Made by a program: the position numbers and the translations under genes | In this document: one piece after another, positions 37,337 through 43,708 of the stretch | How the letters are laid out: each line of letters opens with the position of its first letter | Numbering within the stretch: the stretch's first letter is position 1 | NCBI GenBank assembly: GCA_017432365.1 | Contig: JAFRJG010000011.1 | Coordinates: 1 to 62,415, forward strand | Direction of reading: 5' to 3' | Source of the DNA: Candidatus Saccharimonadota bacterium | GTDB lineage: Bacteria; Patescibacteriota; Saccharimonadia; Saccharimonadales; Saccharimonadaceae | Length of the DNA: 62,415 nucleotides | Notes under the pieces: generated by a model | Told to the model about the DNA's origin: nothing | The model's database searches: none | What the model saw: the letters and a program-made list of their open reading frames with translations, nothing else

Positions 37337-37413
37337 GCACCCGTAGCTCAGCGGATTAGAGCACTTGTCTTCGGAACAAGGGGTCGTAGGTTCGAATCCT
37401 ATCGGGTGTACCA
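37337..37413 (+). tRNA. tRNA-Arg (TCG), insertion target
   Basis: Acceptor GCACCCG / CGGGTGT, anticodon loop CTTCGGA giving TCG, T-arm GTAGG TTCGAAT CCTAT and encoded CCA. The mobile element begins in its 3' end (GGTGTACCA, 37405-37413); the tRNA remains complete. The recombinase stop codon is at 37399-37401 on the other strand. Confidence 0.94.
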
Positions 37414-38997
37414 TTCTGAAATTAAGTCCTCTTTGAGGTCTTTTTTCATCTGTTGTAAGTCGGTTCGAGCCAAATTATACTTCTCTTTCAGTTCAGGATA
37501 AGTTTTTTCAATCGGTACAAGATACTTTATAGGGGTAAATTGTATGGTTCGACCCGAAAGTTTCAGATCTGCGCCCAGCCTTTTTATCACGGCTCTTTTC
37601 TTCTCCCAGTCATCGCTGTCAAAATCCTCTTTAGCATAACGAGCAAACATGAAAATGTCGGTTGCGGTCTCTCTCCAGTCATGCGCCACAGTCAAAACCT
37701 TGTCTCGCTCATGCTCTAATACTACAATGTCTTTTTCTAATGATTCTTGCTCGGACAAGAAAAAGGCATTGTCGGTAATTATTCCTCTATAAACCGACCG
37801 TCTTAAACCGTCTAACTCATTTTTCTTTTGGGCAATTAACCTGTTATATTTTGCAATTTCATCATTCTGCTTAGCTACTTCAATATCATCTTCCTCTGCT
37901 AAAGCTTCCACTGCAAGCCTGAAAAAGTCCTCATCTATGGTATATTTGCTCAGCTCGTCCTTAATTTGTTTTATTAGTTCTTCTTCTCTAATGTAAATGG
38001 AGCGGTTTTTACAACGCTCATGAGGGTTTTTATCGCAACAATGGCAGTATCGGTGCTCCCTGATAGTGCCGTCTTTTAGTTTCTTAAACTTTCTCTCTGT
38101 TACAATGGCATATCCACACTCTGTACAGGTTAACATCCCTCTTAATAAAAACTGATAGGGTTCTTTTTGAGGTCTGCTAGCGTGATGCGGTTTTAAGATT
38201 TCTTGCATATGCTCAAATTCATCTTCCGTAATCATAGCGGGGTGATTCCCATTATATATCGTTTTCGCCCACCTCAGTTTGCCCGCATAAAATGGATTGG
38301 TTAGGATACCACGTACAGCATTATGGCAGAGCGCGCCACCACCGCTACGCTTTTTAAGCGGCTTCCTTATTCTTAGCTCCTCGTCAGCAATTCTAGTGAG
38401 TTCCGCAACAGTATAAGTGCCAGTAAGGGCTTTTCGCCATAGCATCGAAACCTTATCCCATGTCGCAGGGTCTTTGATGATTTTCTTTTCAATACGATCA
38501 TTCAGATAACCGATAGGCGGACAGCCTGGAAAATCCCCCTTGTCTGCTTTTGAATACATGCCACGTTTAACTTTGGCTTTTAGCTCTTTCACAAATCTGC
38601 TGTTCATGCTATTCTCAATAGAGAAAAGCAACTCATCATTTTCGCGGTACCACTTCTCGTGTGTCCTGATGCCAGACAAGACCCCGCTATCAAGTAGCCA
38701 TTGTAAATCACCGCCGTCCTTTGCGTTACGTGATAACCGACTAGTATCCCATGTAAGAATAACGTTATACTTGCCGTCCGATACGTTTTTCATCATTTCG
38801 CCAAACTTAACCCTTACGTTTGGTTCTTTCGCGCTTTTAGCCTCCGATAATATCTCAACAATTTGCAGGCCCTCATCCTTTGCTATCTCTTTCATAATCC
38901 TGATTTGATCGTCAATAGACTGGACTTGTTTGTCCTCTGATTCGGTAGATTTACGTGCGTAAAGCACGGCTCGTTTGGCTTGGTTTTGCTTATTCAT
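37399..38997 (-). CDS. Large serine recombinase
   Basis: A 532-residue recombinase. The N-terminal resolvase domain has YARKS with the catalytic Ser17 and TWDTSRLSRN; a Recombinase domain (about 160-260) and a zinc ribbon (CTECGY then CHCC and CKNRS, about 300-340) follow, then coiled coil (about 370-430). This type integrates and excises DNA between short att sites. Its C-terminus is encoded by the tRNA-Arg 3' end and the TAG stop belongs to the tRNA. In the circular form the frame would continue for about 25 residues across the rebuilt site. tRNA insertion is more usual for tyrosine recombinases. Confidence 0.94.
   Translation of the reverse strand: MNKQNQAKRAVLYARKSTESEDKQVQSIDDQIRIMKEIAKDEGLQIVEILSEAKSAKEPNVRVKFGEMMKNVSDGKYNVILTWDTSRLSRNAKDGGDLQWLLDSGVLSGIRTHEKWYRENDELLFSIENSMNSRFVKELKAKVKRGMYSKADKGDFPGCPPIGYLNDRIEKKIIKDPATWDKVSMLWRKALTGTYTVAELTRIADEELRIRKPLKKRSGGGALCHNAVRGILTNPFYAGKLRWAKTIYNGNHPAMITEDEFEHMQEILKPHHASRPQKEPYQFLLRGMLTCTECGYAIVTERKFKKLKDGTIREHRYCHCCDKNPHERCKNRSIYIREEELIKQIKDELSKYTIDEDFFRLAVEALAEEDDIEVAKQNDEIAKYNRLIAQKKNELDGLRRSVYRGIITDNAFFLSEQESLEKDIVVLEHERDKVLTVAHDWRETATDIFMFARYAKEDFDSDDWEKKRAVIKRLGADLKLSGRTIQFTPIKYLVPIEKTYPELKEKYNLARTDLQQMKKDLKEDLISEWYTR
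37405..37413 (+). repeat. attL core direct repeat
   Basis: GGTGTACCA at the tRNA-Arg 3' end. The same nine bases recur at 43950-43958. Confidence 0.7.
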
Positions 38998-39000
38998 AAA

Positions 39001-39125
39001 ACTCCTTTTCTACCCAAAAAGGGTAGCCGATTGTTCCACATCCAGAGCGTAAAACCCTTTCTGCTTCGGCTACCCTACATCGGGCAGAAAGAAAACGGTT
39101 TTACGTTATATCTGAATATGGAACA
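39001..39125 (-). ncRNA. Pseudoknotted leader RNA A, upstream of recombinase
   Basis: Starts at TATAAT (39131-39136, minus). Predicted pairs: P1 of 15 bp (39111-39125 with 39032-39046, two G-U), P2 of 9 bp (39097-39105 with 39048-39056), P3 of 7 bp (39084-39090 with 39058-39064). The P3 loop holds GGGTAGCCGA (39066-39075), complementary over 10 nt to TCGGCTACCC (39021-39030) outside P1, a pseudoknot. The latter can instead form a hairpin (39010-39026) touching the Shine-Dalgarno AAAAGGAG (39002-39009). Not matched to a known RNA family by eye. Confidence 0.7.
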
Positions 39126-39130
39126 TCTTA

Positions 39131-39136
39131 ATTATA
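39131..39136 (-). promoter_or_regulatory. -10 box of recombinase transcript
   Basis: TATAAT (minus), about 6 nt before the predicted 5' end of leader A. Confidence 0.6.
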
Positions 39137-39142
39137 TCACAT

Positions 39143-41092
39143 TTAATCTGTTTCTTCCATACCGTCCTCTTCGTCATCGAAGAAAACGAGCGGAATGATT
39201 AGCTTCTGACGCTTGTCGTTTTCGTCCTTGTCGCAACTAACTAACGCAGCGGTTTCTAACGCCGGAATGTACTGTTTGCGGAGATTTTCTACATTTGGAT
39301 AACTCCCAGTTTGGTTATAGTATTCCTTGCATATTTCGCTGTATGTAATACCTTTCCTCTGAATACCACTTCTGCTATTAGCGCGATAAACAGCTAAAAT
39401 GATATTAATATAAAAGCTGAATACCTGTGGCGAAACACCATAAGCCATACTCTTATTAAGAGGAGTCCAAAGTTTCATGGCTTCGTCAACGTCTTTGTTG
39501 GTGGCAATTATTTTGCCATCGATCATTCTAAAAGGCGCATTTAGTAACGCCATCGCTTTTACTAAAGAGATGAAGTGTGAGATTTCGCGTTGCGTTTTAG
39601 GCAACAAGGCTTTTCTCCCATCCATAAACTTGCGTTTTAGATAATCGCTGTTATCAATATCAATGGTATCAACTTTTAACCCCTTAATATGTAGCACTCG
39701 TTCCTTTAGTCGTTTACGTTCCTCATTACCCTCTATTAGAGCATTGTAGGCGTTTTTATGGCTATTCCTGGCAATACTAGTATCAACACCCGCCTTAACT
39801 TTCTCCTGTGTGCTTTCAGGGCTTAAAATTAGGCACCGCGTCTGTTCCTGCTCGTCAATCCGCATATTTGCAGAGCAGAAGAAAGTGGATGGAAACCCCA
39901 GTATATACCCTTCCATTGCCGTGTTTTTACCATTCTTGCCTTTATTAGTAATAGCAAAAGGGGTGCGCTTGTTATCGTGAGACAAGAGGGCTCGCAGATT
40001 TTCTTGCAATTGCGTATCTGGCTGCTCAGTGAAAACTAATATGCGACGCTCCAGATTAATGAAAGGTTGCCCTGTTTTACGATCCGTCTCTTGCAGGCTT
40101 TGGCTATAATAAAAAGCCGTAGGTGTAGTTTTGCCATAAACTTTTACATCTTGGGGCGGGAAATACTTACTAACTTCGCTACAGATATATGTCTTTCCAG
40201 TAGAACTACTAGCGTTAAACATAACGTTTTGTTGGTCTGATTCGGTGTACGCTAAAAGCATAACTAAAAATGTTACTACTTTGCTTACAAAGTCGTATTT
40301 AATCGTTAGGTCAAGCACATCCGCAATATCTTCAACTGTCATTTCCTTAAATCGAGATGCATTGAAAGGCTTCGTTCCGCCGTAAAACTCAGCATACTTC
40401 GACAGGAGCTCATCGGCTGTACCTAATTCCTCGGCAAAATAGTCCGTGAGACTTGAACAGGGCAGTGAGATTTTGTAAACAGATGCCATCGGGACTTGCT
40501 TCGTTAAGCGTTGGACAAGTTCCTCCATAATCTTATCGTCATTTATACATAAGTAAATGTTGCGCATATTTTTTAACGAACCAATCCACTCATTCCTAAG
40601 TTCAGCTCCACCACCAGTGACCACTGGCATTTTGACCCCCTCTTGGATAGCAATAATGCGATCCAGTTCGTCATCGCAAATCAGAACGTCGCTTGAAGTA
40701 CTTTTAATGAGTAAATCTTCGCCAACGAGCAACGGGTCTGCATCGATTGGATAAATCATATATTTCGAAATTGGCTCTCCGCCCAGCATCTCCGCCCCAA
40801 CCTCACTTCTGTCGTCAGCTGGCGTTCTGAGGAGTTTTATATAAGCCACCTTGCCATCTCTATCGAAGACTGGTATACTGAATCTATAGTGTTCGTCAAA
40901 TTTTGCTAAACCTAGCATAAATCTGTCGATACTACTATTACTAATACCACGTCCGTTGAAATAATCACGGACGTCTTTGCTTTCTCGCGCGTCTCTATGA
41001 GCCTTGCGTACTAGCGTTTCTAGCGACACTCCACTTTTCATCTTGGTGGGTTTTTGTCCCTCATTTGTTTTTGTTAAATTATTAATCTTCAT
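39143..41092 (-). CDS. Primase-helicase-like replication protein
   Basis: A 649-residue protein. Residues 40-70 (YFNGRGISNSSIDRFMLGLA) resemble the DnaG-type N-terminal segment, and residues 137-155 resemble a degenerate TOPRIM motif. The C-terminal half is a P-loop ATPase: FNASSSTGKTYI (Walker A about 293-301) and RRILVFTEQPD (Walker B-like). Arrangement suggests initiation and unwinding at the element's own origin, so the element can probably replicate when excised. It starts 4 nt after the stop of the 47-residue gene. Codon use (ATA, TTA, AGT) is unlike the host. Confidence 0.72.
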   Translation of the reverse strand: MKINNLTKTNEGQKPTKMKSGVSLETLVRKAHRDARESKDVRDYFNGRGISNSSIDRFMLGLAKFDEHYRFSIPVFDRDGKVAYIKLLRTPADDRSEVGAEMLGGEPISKYMIYPIDADPLLVGEDLLIKSTSSDVLICDDELDRIIAIQEGVKMPVVTGGGAELRNEWIGSLKNMRNIYLCINDDKIMEELVQRLTKQVPMASVYKISLPCSSLTDYFAEELGTADELLSKYAEFYGGTKPFNASRFKEMTVEDIADVLDLTIKYDFVSKVVTFLVMLLAYTESDQQNVMFNASSSTGKTYICSEVSKYFPPQDVKVYGKTTPTAFYYSQSLQETDRKTGQPFINLERRILVFTEQPDTQLQENLRALLSHDNKRTPFAITNKGKNGKNTAMEGYILGFPSTFFCSANMRIDEQEQTRCLILSPESTQEKVKAGVDTSIARNSHKNAYNALIEGNEERKRLKERVLHIKGLKVDTIDIDNSDYLKRKFMDGRKALLPKTQREISHFISLVKAMALLNAPFRMIDGKIIATNKDVDEAMKLWTPLNKSMAYGVSPQVFSFYINIILAVYRANSRSGIQRKGITYSEICKEYYNQTGSYPNVENLRKQYIPALETAALVSCDKDENDKRQKLIIPLVFFDDEEDGMEETD

Positions 41093-41240: not shown

Positions 41241-41269
41241 CGTATGCATCTCCTATTAACGTACTTGGA

Positions 41270-41308
41270 GGGTTACTCAATTGGGATAGCTATTAAATTA
41301 AGTAACCC
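41270..41308 (-). promoter_or_regulatory. Inverted repeat upstream of the 47-residue gene
   Basis: GGGTTACT (41270-41277) and AGTAACCC (41301-41308) form an 8-bp stem with a 23-nt loop; about 20-30 nt before the AGGAG. It may be a leader hairpin or an operator. Confidence 0.4.
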
Positions 41309-41376
41309 TGCCAGCCATCCTACCCCCAGCTTAGCAAACAAATGTACTCCTGGAAATTAAAGCCGAAGACGTATCG

Positions 41377-41410
41377 AAAAAAATATTGCCACAATAGGGA
41401 GTGTGGCAAT
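41377..41410 (-). terminator. Intrinsic terminator of 41445-42245
   Basis: Stem ATTGCCACA / TGTGGCAAT (41385-41393, 41402-41410); on the minus strand it runs into ATTTTTTT. Confidence 0.85.
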
Positions 41411-41414
41411 AGGG

Positions 41415-41443
41415 TGTCGAAGTGTTGTCGAAGCAATGTCGAA
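41415..41443 (+). repeat. Three iteron-like TGTCGAA repeats
   Basis: TGTCGAA at 41415-41421, 41426-41432 and 41437-41443, starts exactly 11 bp apart, about one helical turn. They lie between a gene end and its terminator, close to the replication protein. They could be binding sites for a replication initiator or repressor. Confidence 0.5.
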
Positions 41444-42313: not shown

Positions 42314-42340
42314 TAAAAAAGAAGCTCCTGCGGTAGGAGC
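42314..42340 (-). terminator. Intrinsic terminator between element genes
   Basis: GCTCCT / AGGAGC stem (42324-42340), followed on the minus strand by TTCTTTTTT. It separates the tRNase-like gene from the 266-residue gene. Confidence 0.8.
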
Positions 42341-42379
42341 ATACTGCCCCGTGCAAGAACTTCATTAATTATAATTATA

Positions 42380-42775
42380 CTAAATGAGCGATTTAATGTC
42401 AATGATTTGACCGCGTTTCGTGATAAAAATTAACTCACCAATCTGTTTTTGCTCTTTAGCTTTCTTAACGAGGAAACGCCGCAAATTGTCGTCGCGCATA
42501 TTTTTAATTCTCGACGAATCAAATATAATGTTCTTAGCCTGTTTTAGCCCACGTTTGATATTCCGCTCTAGCTTATCTAGCTTATTAGTAAACGGAGACT
42601 TCATTTCGTATTCTACCCCGTCTAATAAAATGTCTGCGGTGCTGATATTGGATTCTGGAAGAAACTCAATGTTATGACCAGCGGAAGCTAAAATGTCAGC
42701 AATACGAAGCTCATGCGCCCATGGTCTACGCCCAGCAGGTATAATAATCCTGCCTCTTTGTTTTGGGTTATTCAT
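42380..42775 (-). CDS. CdiA C-terminal tRNase-like protein
   Basis: A 131-residue stand-alone protein resembling the CdiA C-terminal tRNase domain: ADILLDGVEYEMKSP with D48, E57 and K59 in PD-(D/E)xK-like order, a basic helix, and IGELIFITKRGQIIDI at the end. Such domains cut tRNA when delivered by toxin systems. Start at 42775 is chosen because TATAAT (42782-42787) ends exactly 6 nt before this ATG; a longer frame extends 14 codons upstream. No antitoxin is identified; the membrane protein upstream is a possible partner. Confidence 0.68.
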   Translation of the reverse strand: MNNPKQRGRIIIPAGRRPWAHELRIADILASAGHNIEFLPESNISTADILLDGVEYEMKSPFTNKLDKLERNIKRGLKQAKNIIFDSSRIKNMRDDNLRRFLVKKAKEQKQIGELIFITKRGQIIDIKSLI

Positions 42776-42781
42776 TACCCT

Positions 42782-42787
42782 ATTATA
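42782..42787 (-). promoter_or_regulatory. -10 box of tRNase-like gene
   Basis: TATAAT (minus) exactly 6 nt before the ATG at 42775. It lies at the end of the upstream gene. Confidence 0.6.
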
Positions 42788-43346
42788 ACATATCTTCGGC
42801 GTCGTCGTCCGGCTCATCAGTCGGTTCGGTCTTCGGCGATTTGTTTGCCTTTTCCGCTTCCTCTTCTCGTTCCTGCAATATCAAGGACTTGGTGGCTTTA
42901 TGCTTTTTTAAGTCATCAGCGTATCGCTTTTTCATTGCATTATTAAAAACAATGGTAGCTATAAAAACACCATAAAACACTGCCAATAATAAATATCCGA
43001 CCCATCCCAAATCATGGTTCGACGCTAAAACAGAAACCACAACCAATACAGCCCAGATAATTTGAAATACCGTAGCGTTGTATCCTCTTAGCTTCCACCG
43101 TTCTACAATAGCCATAGCAAAAGCAGTTGGCAACCCAAGCAAGACTCCGTAAAATAACCCACCTAGTAAACCAGACAATACTACTGCTTCAGATGTAACT
43201 TGTAAATGAGATTGCGAAGAGGCAGGAGAGTCCACATTTGCTACCGAAAAACAACCTCCAATGATAACCCAAGCAATTAAGTAGCCCCAAAAAGTTCTAT
43301 AAACTCTGCGTTTTATTTCATTTTCTATAGCTGTTTTGTTTGGCAT
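42783..43346 (-). CDS. Four-helix membrane protein of the element
   Basis: A 187-residue protein with four predicted membrane helices (about 20-37, 55-80, 95-112, 117-137) and a charged acidic C-terminal tail (EEEAEKANKSP, then DEPDDDAED). It is the first gene after leader RNA B and ends within the promoter of the tRNase-like gene. Membrane proteins next to CDI-type toxin domains can be immunity or transport partners, but that is inference. No family is recognised. Confidence 0.6.
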   Translation of the reverse strand: MPNKTAIENEIKRRVYRTFWGYLIAWVIIGGCFSVANVDSPASSQSHLQVTSEAVVLSGLLGGLFYGVLLGLPTAFAMAIVERWKLRGYNATVFQIIWAVLVVVSVLASNHDLGWVGYLLLAVFYGVFIATIVFNNAMKKRYADDLKKHKATKSLILQEREEEAEKANKSPKTEPTDEPDDDAEDML

Positions 43347-43533
43347 GGAGCACCTTTCGTTGTTATACGTAGATGTCCCTTAAACTAAATGGGACACCCG
43401 CTATTGGGTGTCCATACTCAATTTGCTGCAGAAAGGCGTTAGCCCGACTGGAGCGGGTGCCCCACAAAGGGGCTAATTCGATTATCCACAGTAGTCATCT
43501 GTGAACCTTTCGACAGCTTATGAATATGGACAT
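43347..43533 (-). ncRNA. Pseudoknotted leader RNA B, upstream of membrane protein
   Basis: Starts at TATAAT (43539-43544, minus). P1 of 12 bp (43521-43532 with 43409-43420, one G-U), P2 of 12 positions with one mismatch and one G-U (43506-43517 with 43425-43436), a small hairpin (43487-43503) and P3 of 7 bp (43470-43476 with 43439-43445). The P3 loop holds CACCCGCT (43452-43459), complementary to AGCGGGTG (43395-43402) outside P1. A competing hairpin (43392-43413) uses the same strand. Topology equals leader A though most stems differ in sequence. Confidence 0.7.
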
Positions 43534-43538
43534 TACTA

Positions 43539-43544
43539 ATTATA
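43539..43544 (-). promoter_or_regulatory. -10 box of leader B transcript
   Basis: TATAAT (minus) with TGG before it (extended -10). Confidence 0.6.
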
Positions 43545-43708
43545 CCATAAAACCCGTTAATGTTATAGGCGTCGCGTGATAGTGATGTCGAGATTCGCTT
43601 CGTTTTTAGCGAGCATAAAAGACATTTGCATTAGCCCCAAAAATACCCCTGACTCCGCAGGGGTACCGACTGTTCATTTTGGGGGTCTCTGCCCCAGCTA
43701 ATTTAGAC

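Follow-up and report, generated by a model that had tools for sequence, protein, structure and literature searches.

The integrase leader and its fold

The window analysed here is a stretch of 62,415 nucleotides from a Candidatus Saccharimonadota bacterium (assembly GCA_017432365.1, contig JAFRJG010000011.1, positions 1 to 62,415), and it carries an element with a gene for a large serine integrase on its minus strand. The 5′ end of the integrase message is a structured RNA, termed leader A here (minus strand, 39125 to 39020), which consists of three helices, P1, P2 and P3, and a pseudoknot. From 39139 to 38995 of the minus strand, a -10 box is followed in turn by five bases, P1 enclosing P2 and P3, the tail strand of the pseudoknot, UUUUU, a Shine-Dalgarno sequence and ATG. 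The features are listed below, with pairing and double changes counted over the cells of the group 1 alignment described in the next section.

39131 to 39139, minus strand: extended -10 promoter element TGATATAAT, read from the sequence; its TATAAT (39136 to 39131) ends 5 nucleotides (nt) before P1
39111 to 39125, minus strand: 5′ strand of P1, 15 base pairs (bp) with 39046 to 39032; 96.6% of cells paired, double changes in 7 of 15 pairs
39032 to 39046, minus strand: 3′ strand of P1, partner of 39125 to 39111
39097 to 39105, minus strand: 5′ strand of P2, 9 bp; 95.8% of cells paired, double changes in 5 of 9 pairs
39048 to 39056, minus strand: 3′ strand of P2, partner of 39105 to 39097
39084 to 39091, minus strand: 5′ strand of P3, 8 bp; 92.1% of cells paired, double changes in 2 of 8 pairs
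39057 to 39064, minus strand: 3′ strand of P3, partner of 39091 to 39084
39082 to 39087, minus strand: strand a (CUGCCC), which in the absence of the pseudoknot pairs locally with 39075 to 39070, in 91.3% of 46 cells
39066 to 39076, minus strand: loop strand b of the pseudoknot, pairing with tail strand c; 85 of 85 cells paired, double changes in 8 of 11 pairs
39020 to 39030, minus strand: tail strand c of the pseudoknot, partner of loop strand b
39016 to 39020, minus strand: run of five U directly after the pseudoknot, read from the sequence; found in most integrase leaders, with UAUUUAAG in its place in part of group 3
39010 to 39015, minus strand: strand d (GGGUAG), forming a tail hairpin with 39026 to 39021; present in the window, not conserved
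39002 to 39009, minus strand: Shine-Dalgarno sequence AAAAGGAG, read from the sequence
37399 to 38997, minus strand: large serine integrase gene, 532 residues; Pfam Resolvase (3e-17), Recombinase and Zn_ribbon_recom, PHROG integrase (1.1e-60)

A sequence-only reading of this DNA had proposed a P1 of 15 bp and a P2 of 9 bp on the minus strand, both of which are borne out; its P3 also exists, with a length of 8 bp and not 7 bp. The pseudoknot joins GGGUAGCCGA in the apical loop (39075 to 39066) to the complementary UCGGCUACCC (39030 to 39021), exactly the 10-nt loop-to-tail pairing of that reading, and grows to 11 bp with A39076-U39020; it covaries in relatives, and its tail strand c begins one base past the closure of P1. 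The minimum free energy of leader A is -57.2 kcal/mol, against -31.6 ± 3.5 kcal/mol for 200 dinucleotide shuffles, none of which was as low (z -7.3), a score that describes the nested helices alone and does not count the pseudoknot.

Conservation among close integrase relatives

Relatives of the integrase were collected by protein similarity only, and the resulting group 1 is free of selection by the pseudoknot. It comprises the window and seven distinct full-length relatives of at least 66% identity (L036, L037, L008, L038, L040, L039 and L041), and in all seven of these the leader lies directly before the integrase gene. A covariance model of P1 to P3, built from four of these relatives and leaving the pseudoknot outside, was searched against 170 genomes of the genus; it detects the leader in 6 of them, in every case before an integrase homologue, and it also recovers the leader of L030 (E 1.8e-8), the integrase of which is only about 30% identical. 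When the eight sequences are aligned by fitting to the model, 95.3% of the P1 to P3 cells are paired and 14 of 32 pairs are changed on both sides; in the same alignment the pseudoknot is paired throughout, whereas slid pairings reach 20 to 60% and none of 500 shuffles attains the observed pairing. Covariation of P1 to P3 and of the pseudoknot in homologues, which the sequence-only reading had named as the check on its fold, is strong in these eight sequences. Outside cellular genomes, a search of viral contigs with the integrase yielded no relative, and one of phages and plasmids with leader A gave no match.

The inverted repeats might act as DNA, serving a repressor or the integrase itself as operators or as recombination sites, and both P1 and the b/c pairing are indeed inverted repeats beside a promoter. 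G-U pairs are however kept and used in the covariation, which fits RNA, cmsearch is strand-specific (147.8 bits sense and 19.4 bits antisense), and the promoter box always stands on the same side, so that we consider such a DNA site very improbable.

Competing pairings within leader A

The tail hairpin at 39010 to 39026, described in the sequence-only reading as touching the Shine-Dalgarno sequence, can be drawn in the window but is not conserved in relatives, and the switch between this hairpin and the pseudoknot that had been built on it is not supported. As a conserved alternative fold the hairpin was rejected, being paired in 82% of only 33 cells that hold letters and complete in no sequences but those of the window and L040. 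The conserved competitor is the local hairpin of strands a and b (CUGCCC/GGGUAG), which occupies the 5′ half of loop strand b and shows double changes in 2 of 6 pairs in group 1; similar small hairpins are seen by eye in distant leaders, such as GCCC-GAAAU-GGGC in L235. Strand c can in addition pair with the P3/P2 strand in the eight group 1 leaders (97.4% of 76 cells, only 2 pairs double-changed), and the resulting hairpin is a possible further alternative fold.

Distribution in Patescibacteria

Integrases were searched in 294 genomes of the order and 192 genomes of the phylum, and the fetched stretches were scanned with a descriptor consisting of a loose -10 box, P1 and an interior strand pairing to the tail. 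In both order and phylum, leaders of this architecture precede many recombinases, with quite different sequences. In a census in Patescibacteria, 44 of 179 serine-recombinase starts are preceded by the architecture, compared with 2 of 229 other open reading frames (ORFs), where it is in both cases a B-type leader (see below); other ORFs had at least 200 residues, 200 nt upstream were required, and 24 loci were dropped as duplicates. The leaders of L039 and L040 are recognised by the covariance model and missed by the descriptor. A descriptor hit at L028 was discarded because it spans a tRNA, and L100 was rejected as an integrase leader, its next ORF being no integrase, and belongs to the B/C kind.

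The descriptor alone is not specific, since order-2 Markov sequence with a total of 499,320 bases gives 29 hits, and in the list of these 29, as read through, an exact TATAAT within 16 nt before P1 occurs in none. A chance origin of the leaders was rejected; with the loose -10 box near P1, only the 2 of 229 non-recombinase ORFs score. The TAT of the -10 box begins 11 to 12 nt before P1 in 22 of 38 integrase leaders. In sequence-only alignments of two additional groups, the pseudoknot is paired in 96.1% of cells with 5 pairs double-changed (group 2, 11 sequences) and in 96.0% with double changes in 11 of 18 pairs and 44 cells (group 3, 18 sequences). Groups 2 and 3, like the B leaders, were assembled after the descriptor had shown a pseudoknot, and their pairing percentages are partly due to selection; the double changes in groups 2 and 3, judged against slides, are not. 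The distribution among integrases is patchy.

As expected of a cis-regulatory leader, the conserved structure lies between a promoter, recognised by consensus only, and the start codon of one kind of gene. The leaders are a real RNA class that had not been catalogued before, very probably one of cis-regulatory leaders, and leader A looks like an RNA switch for mobile DNA that stands ahead of many related integrase genes.

Leader B and the C-type leaders

In a repeat search, the promoter and P1 of leader A match 43521 to 43547 in 21 of 27 bases, a site in the same element that takes in P1 of a second leader, leader B.

43389 to 43532, minus strand: leader B, with P1 (43532 to 43521 with 43420 to 43409) and pseudoknot (43465 to 43452 with 43402 to 43389); covariation in 22 B leaders
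43392 to 43413, minus strand: terminator-like hairpin of leader B from a consensus scan, -14.9 kcal/mol, competing with the base of P1 and the pseudoknot

Leader B precedes an ORF for a membrane-protein-like product of 187 residues and resembles leader A in architecture, with P1, a branched interior and the pseudoknot GUGGGGCACCCGCU/AGCGGGUGUCCCAU. Of 170 genomes of the genus, 29 contain its core GGNGCACYCGCTCCAGTCGG with at most 2 mismatches, at 37 sites in total, and none contains the reversed control. An alignment of 22 B leaders, from which L003 and L042 were left out as divergent and L068, L069, L076, L078 and L081 as near-duplicates, has 88.4% of 1148 cells paired and 36 of 53 pairs double-changed. 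The B leader of L003 points away from the neighbouring recombinase. The window's own genome holds two B cores (G000, contig C9 near 3051 and contig C1 at 43444), each on a contig with a serine recombinase, and the only exact match to the core in the viral contig collection is at 1639 to 1658 of L226 (IMGVR_UViG_3300034061_002248).

The C-type leaders (L217 778 to 1362, L218, L222, L223, L207, L191, L195 and L208) have the P1 UGUCUAAAACCAGUAUCA and a terminator hairpin, GACGACC/GGGUCGUC with a tail of six U, which competes with the pseudoknot; several precede exported proteins of the DUF4352 type. In B and C leaders generally, the end of P1 and a few bases pair with strand c in a short hairpin just before the U-rich run. 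Such a hairpin of -6 kcal/mol or lower is present in 33 of 41 B/C leaders compared with 11 of 38 integrase leaders, and its median energy is -10.0 kcal/mol in the former and -5.1 kcal/mol in the latter. A terminator standing as the alternative to an antiterminator fold, which would mark a transcription attenuator, is accordingly found in leader B and not in leader A. Because the terminator hairpin takes both the end of P1 and strand c, the pseudoknot together with the base of P1 would be the antiterminator form in B, and from their sequences the B types look like transcription attenuators.

Leaders of this kind might also be riboswitches, whose pseudoknotted core binds a small molecule or an ion. 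The terminator/antiterminator logic of B would suit this idea, as would nucleotides, both unpaired and paired, whose conservation exceeds what pairing requires, most of all in B and in group 3. The genes behind B and C are however mixed (DUF4352, HSDR_N_2, DUF4407, and mostly nothing recognised), and among the 10 proteins scanned no pathway is shared by these, the integrases and the proteins without assignment; a ligand riboswitch is thus improbable.

Proposed control of integrase expression

For the integrase leaders, translational control is plausible from their position and is the reading preferred here. Leader A may be a cis-acting RNA that gates integrase expression through a pseudoknot hindering the ribosome site, a proposal to which we would give somewhat less than an even chance; we infer the direction of control, its level (translation) and its signal. 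Transcription would start at about the first base of P1, and the local hairpin of strands a and b would form first. Closure of P3 and P1 would then free strand b, allow it to pair with strand c and so produce the pseudoknot, which, abutting the Shine-Dalgarno sequence, would hinder binding of the 30S subunit and keep the integrase low. A signal, be it a protein, a ligand or folding kinetics, would favour the a:b form and allow the integrase to be made. In most Saccharibacteria, 11 to 27 nt separate the end of the pseudoknot from the start codon; in the deep-branching relatives L231, L233 and L242 this distance is 2, 8 and 1 nt, respectively. The pseudoknot helix of L229 contains the purine run AAAGGU.

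Several observations weigh against this proposal. Five integrase relatives of 45 to 50% identity in the same genus (L012, L013, L014, L016 and L018) have no leader, and groups 1 and 2 carry four or five U after the pseudoknot, as a terminator would. The Shine-Dalgarno sequence can also pair directly with the pyrimidine stretch that precedes the loop, the 5′ strand of P3, and this pairing is extensive in the window, L036, L040 and part of group 2; it shows no covariation in group 1 and was rejected as a general feature. When the Shine-Dalgarno sequences of 46 leaders were paired with their own and with each other's strands, their own pairs gave no clear excess (mean percentile 0.42, Wilcoxon p 0.09).

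The same U run, directly after strand c, speaks for a transcription attenuator, in which the pseudoknot helix and the five U would be a terminator, or would block one, and read-through would set integrase expression. This mechanism is also consistent with the pre-U hairpins sharing strand c in most of the sister B/C leaders, with the terminator that the consensus scan lists in leader B (43413 to 43392) and with the pairing of strand c to the P3/P2 strand in group 1. The scan lists no terminator at leader A, however, the integrase leaders are without the short local hairpin of their sisters, as their median energy indicates, and a U run is absent in part of group 3 and in L229, so that attenuation is a serious but rather unlikely explanation for them. 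Of the two mechanisms we favour ribosome-site occlusion, because a local terminator is absent, the pseudoknot abuts the ribosome site and part of group 3 has no U run.

Relation to known RNAs

In the leader of repZ of IncI/IncB plasmids, a hairpin loop pairs with a tail just upstream of the ribosome binding site, and this pseudoknot activates translation of the replication gene, with an antisense RNA acting against it. Leader A has the same loop-tail pairing just upstream of the ribosome site; a sigma-70 consensus scan of the plus strand from 39001 to 39140 listed no antisense promoter opposite it. In fluoride and ZTP riboswitches, pseudoknot and terminator are mutually exclusive, as they are in leader B. 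In HDV-like ribozymes, two pseudoknots are nested and P2 adjoins P1; leader A has another topology, its strand b being part of the apical loop at a distance of 35 nt from P1.

The bridge RNA of IS110 elements is structured and derives from the 5′ end of a DEDD recombinase gene, and its loops match target and donor DNA. Leader A is likewise structured and situated at the 5′ end of a recombinase gene, and as a compact RNA with its own promoter box and variable loop sequences it might act in trans as a guide or cofactor of the integrase. The protein is however a serine recombinase of the resolvase type, with Resolvase and Recombinase domains and not DEDD, and the variation of the loop is accounted for by its own tail. 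In eight elements, the longest stretch common to loop and own attachment region is 5 to 7 nt, compared with 6 to 9 nt for the attachment regions of others. An IS110-type guide RNA was rejected on this comparison, and a trans-acting RNA of any such kind seems scarcely credible.

No Rfam 15 family matches leader A or leader B at its curated score, the best matches below threshold being mir-3059 for A (18 of 88 bits) and S4-Clostridia for B (14 of 37.5 bits), which agrees with the sequence-only reading, where leader A was matched to no known riboswitch or ribozyme. In the HMP-PP (thiS) riboswitch (PMC6478431), an intrinsic terminator is excluded by an ON fold that has P1 and possibly a pseudoknot. 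Leader B is much alike in this exclusion; the HMP-PP riboswitch is much smaller, is firmicute, belongs to thiamin genes and has a short pseudoknot, and leader A differs from it further in having no canonical terminator. Among the open-licence papers listed, none was found on such leaders in Saccharibacteria or Patescibacteria or on pseudoknot leaders of serine integrases. Pseudoknot, intrinsic terminator, attenuation and integrase come together in one paper, PMC11109978, whose searched passages do not mention Saccharibacteria, and riboswitches appear in PMC11665869 only as tools.

Other genes and features of the element

39143 to 41092, minus strand: primase-like gene upstream of leader A; PHROG DNA primase (4.4e-07), no Pfam hit

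At its other end, the integrase ORF extends into the 3′ end of a tRNA gene (Arg, Leu or Ala) in 8 of 8 group 1 elements (37399 to 37413 in the window), so that the tRNA supplies its last codons and its stop; the shared junction is little more than TGG, from the CCA end. A tRNA is present in 57 of 60 further recombinase loci, counted without checking adjacency for each. A structured stretch at 41245 to 41435 (minus strand, z -2.6) precedes a 47-codon ORF and the primase-like gene and holds a 14-bp hairpin, the loop of which, AGCUAUCC, can pair with the upstream GGAUGGCU as a mirror-image pseudoknot. At 42320 to 42402 (minus strand), a perfect TTGACA-17-TATAAT promoter is followed by a terminator hairpin, GCTCCTACCGCAGGAGC, and a U run, a possible short RNA gene. 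The ORF at 42383 to 42817 (minus strand) is cargo-like, with a Pfam CdiA_C match (E 9.8e-11) and a PHROG head maturation protease match.

Significance

Control of large serine integrases has usually been sought in proteins, namely recombination directionality factors and repressors. A conserved RNA before the integrase gene would be an unexpected layer of control in this phylum, whose ultrasmall bacteria have few regulators. Leader A provides a concrete object for tests in culturable Saccharibacteria, and in leader B a terminator/antiterminator pair is at hand for in vitro experiments. It is conceivable, if rather doubtful, that A and B/C leaders form one phylum-wide pseudoknot class with a common origin and a common cue, serving as the standard switch of integrative elements in Patescibacteria. 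If this were true, a single RNA device would time integration, excision and cargo expression, and it would be the first RNA class dedicated to the control of site-specific recombination.
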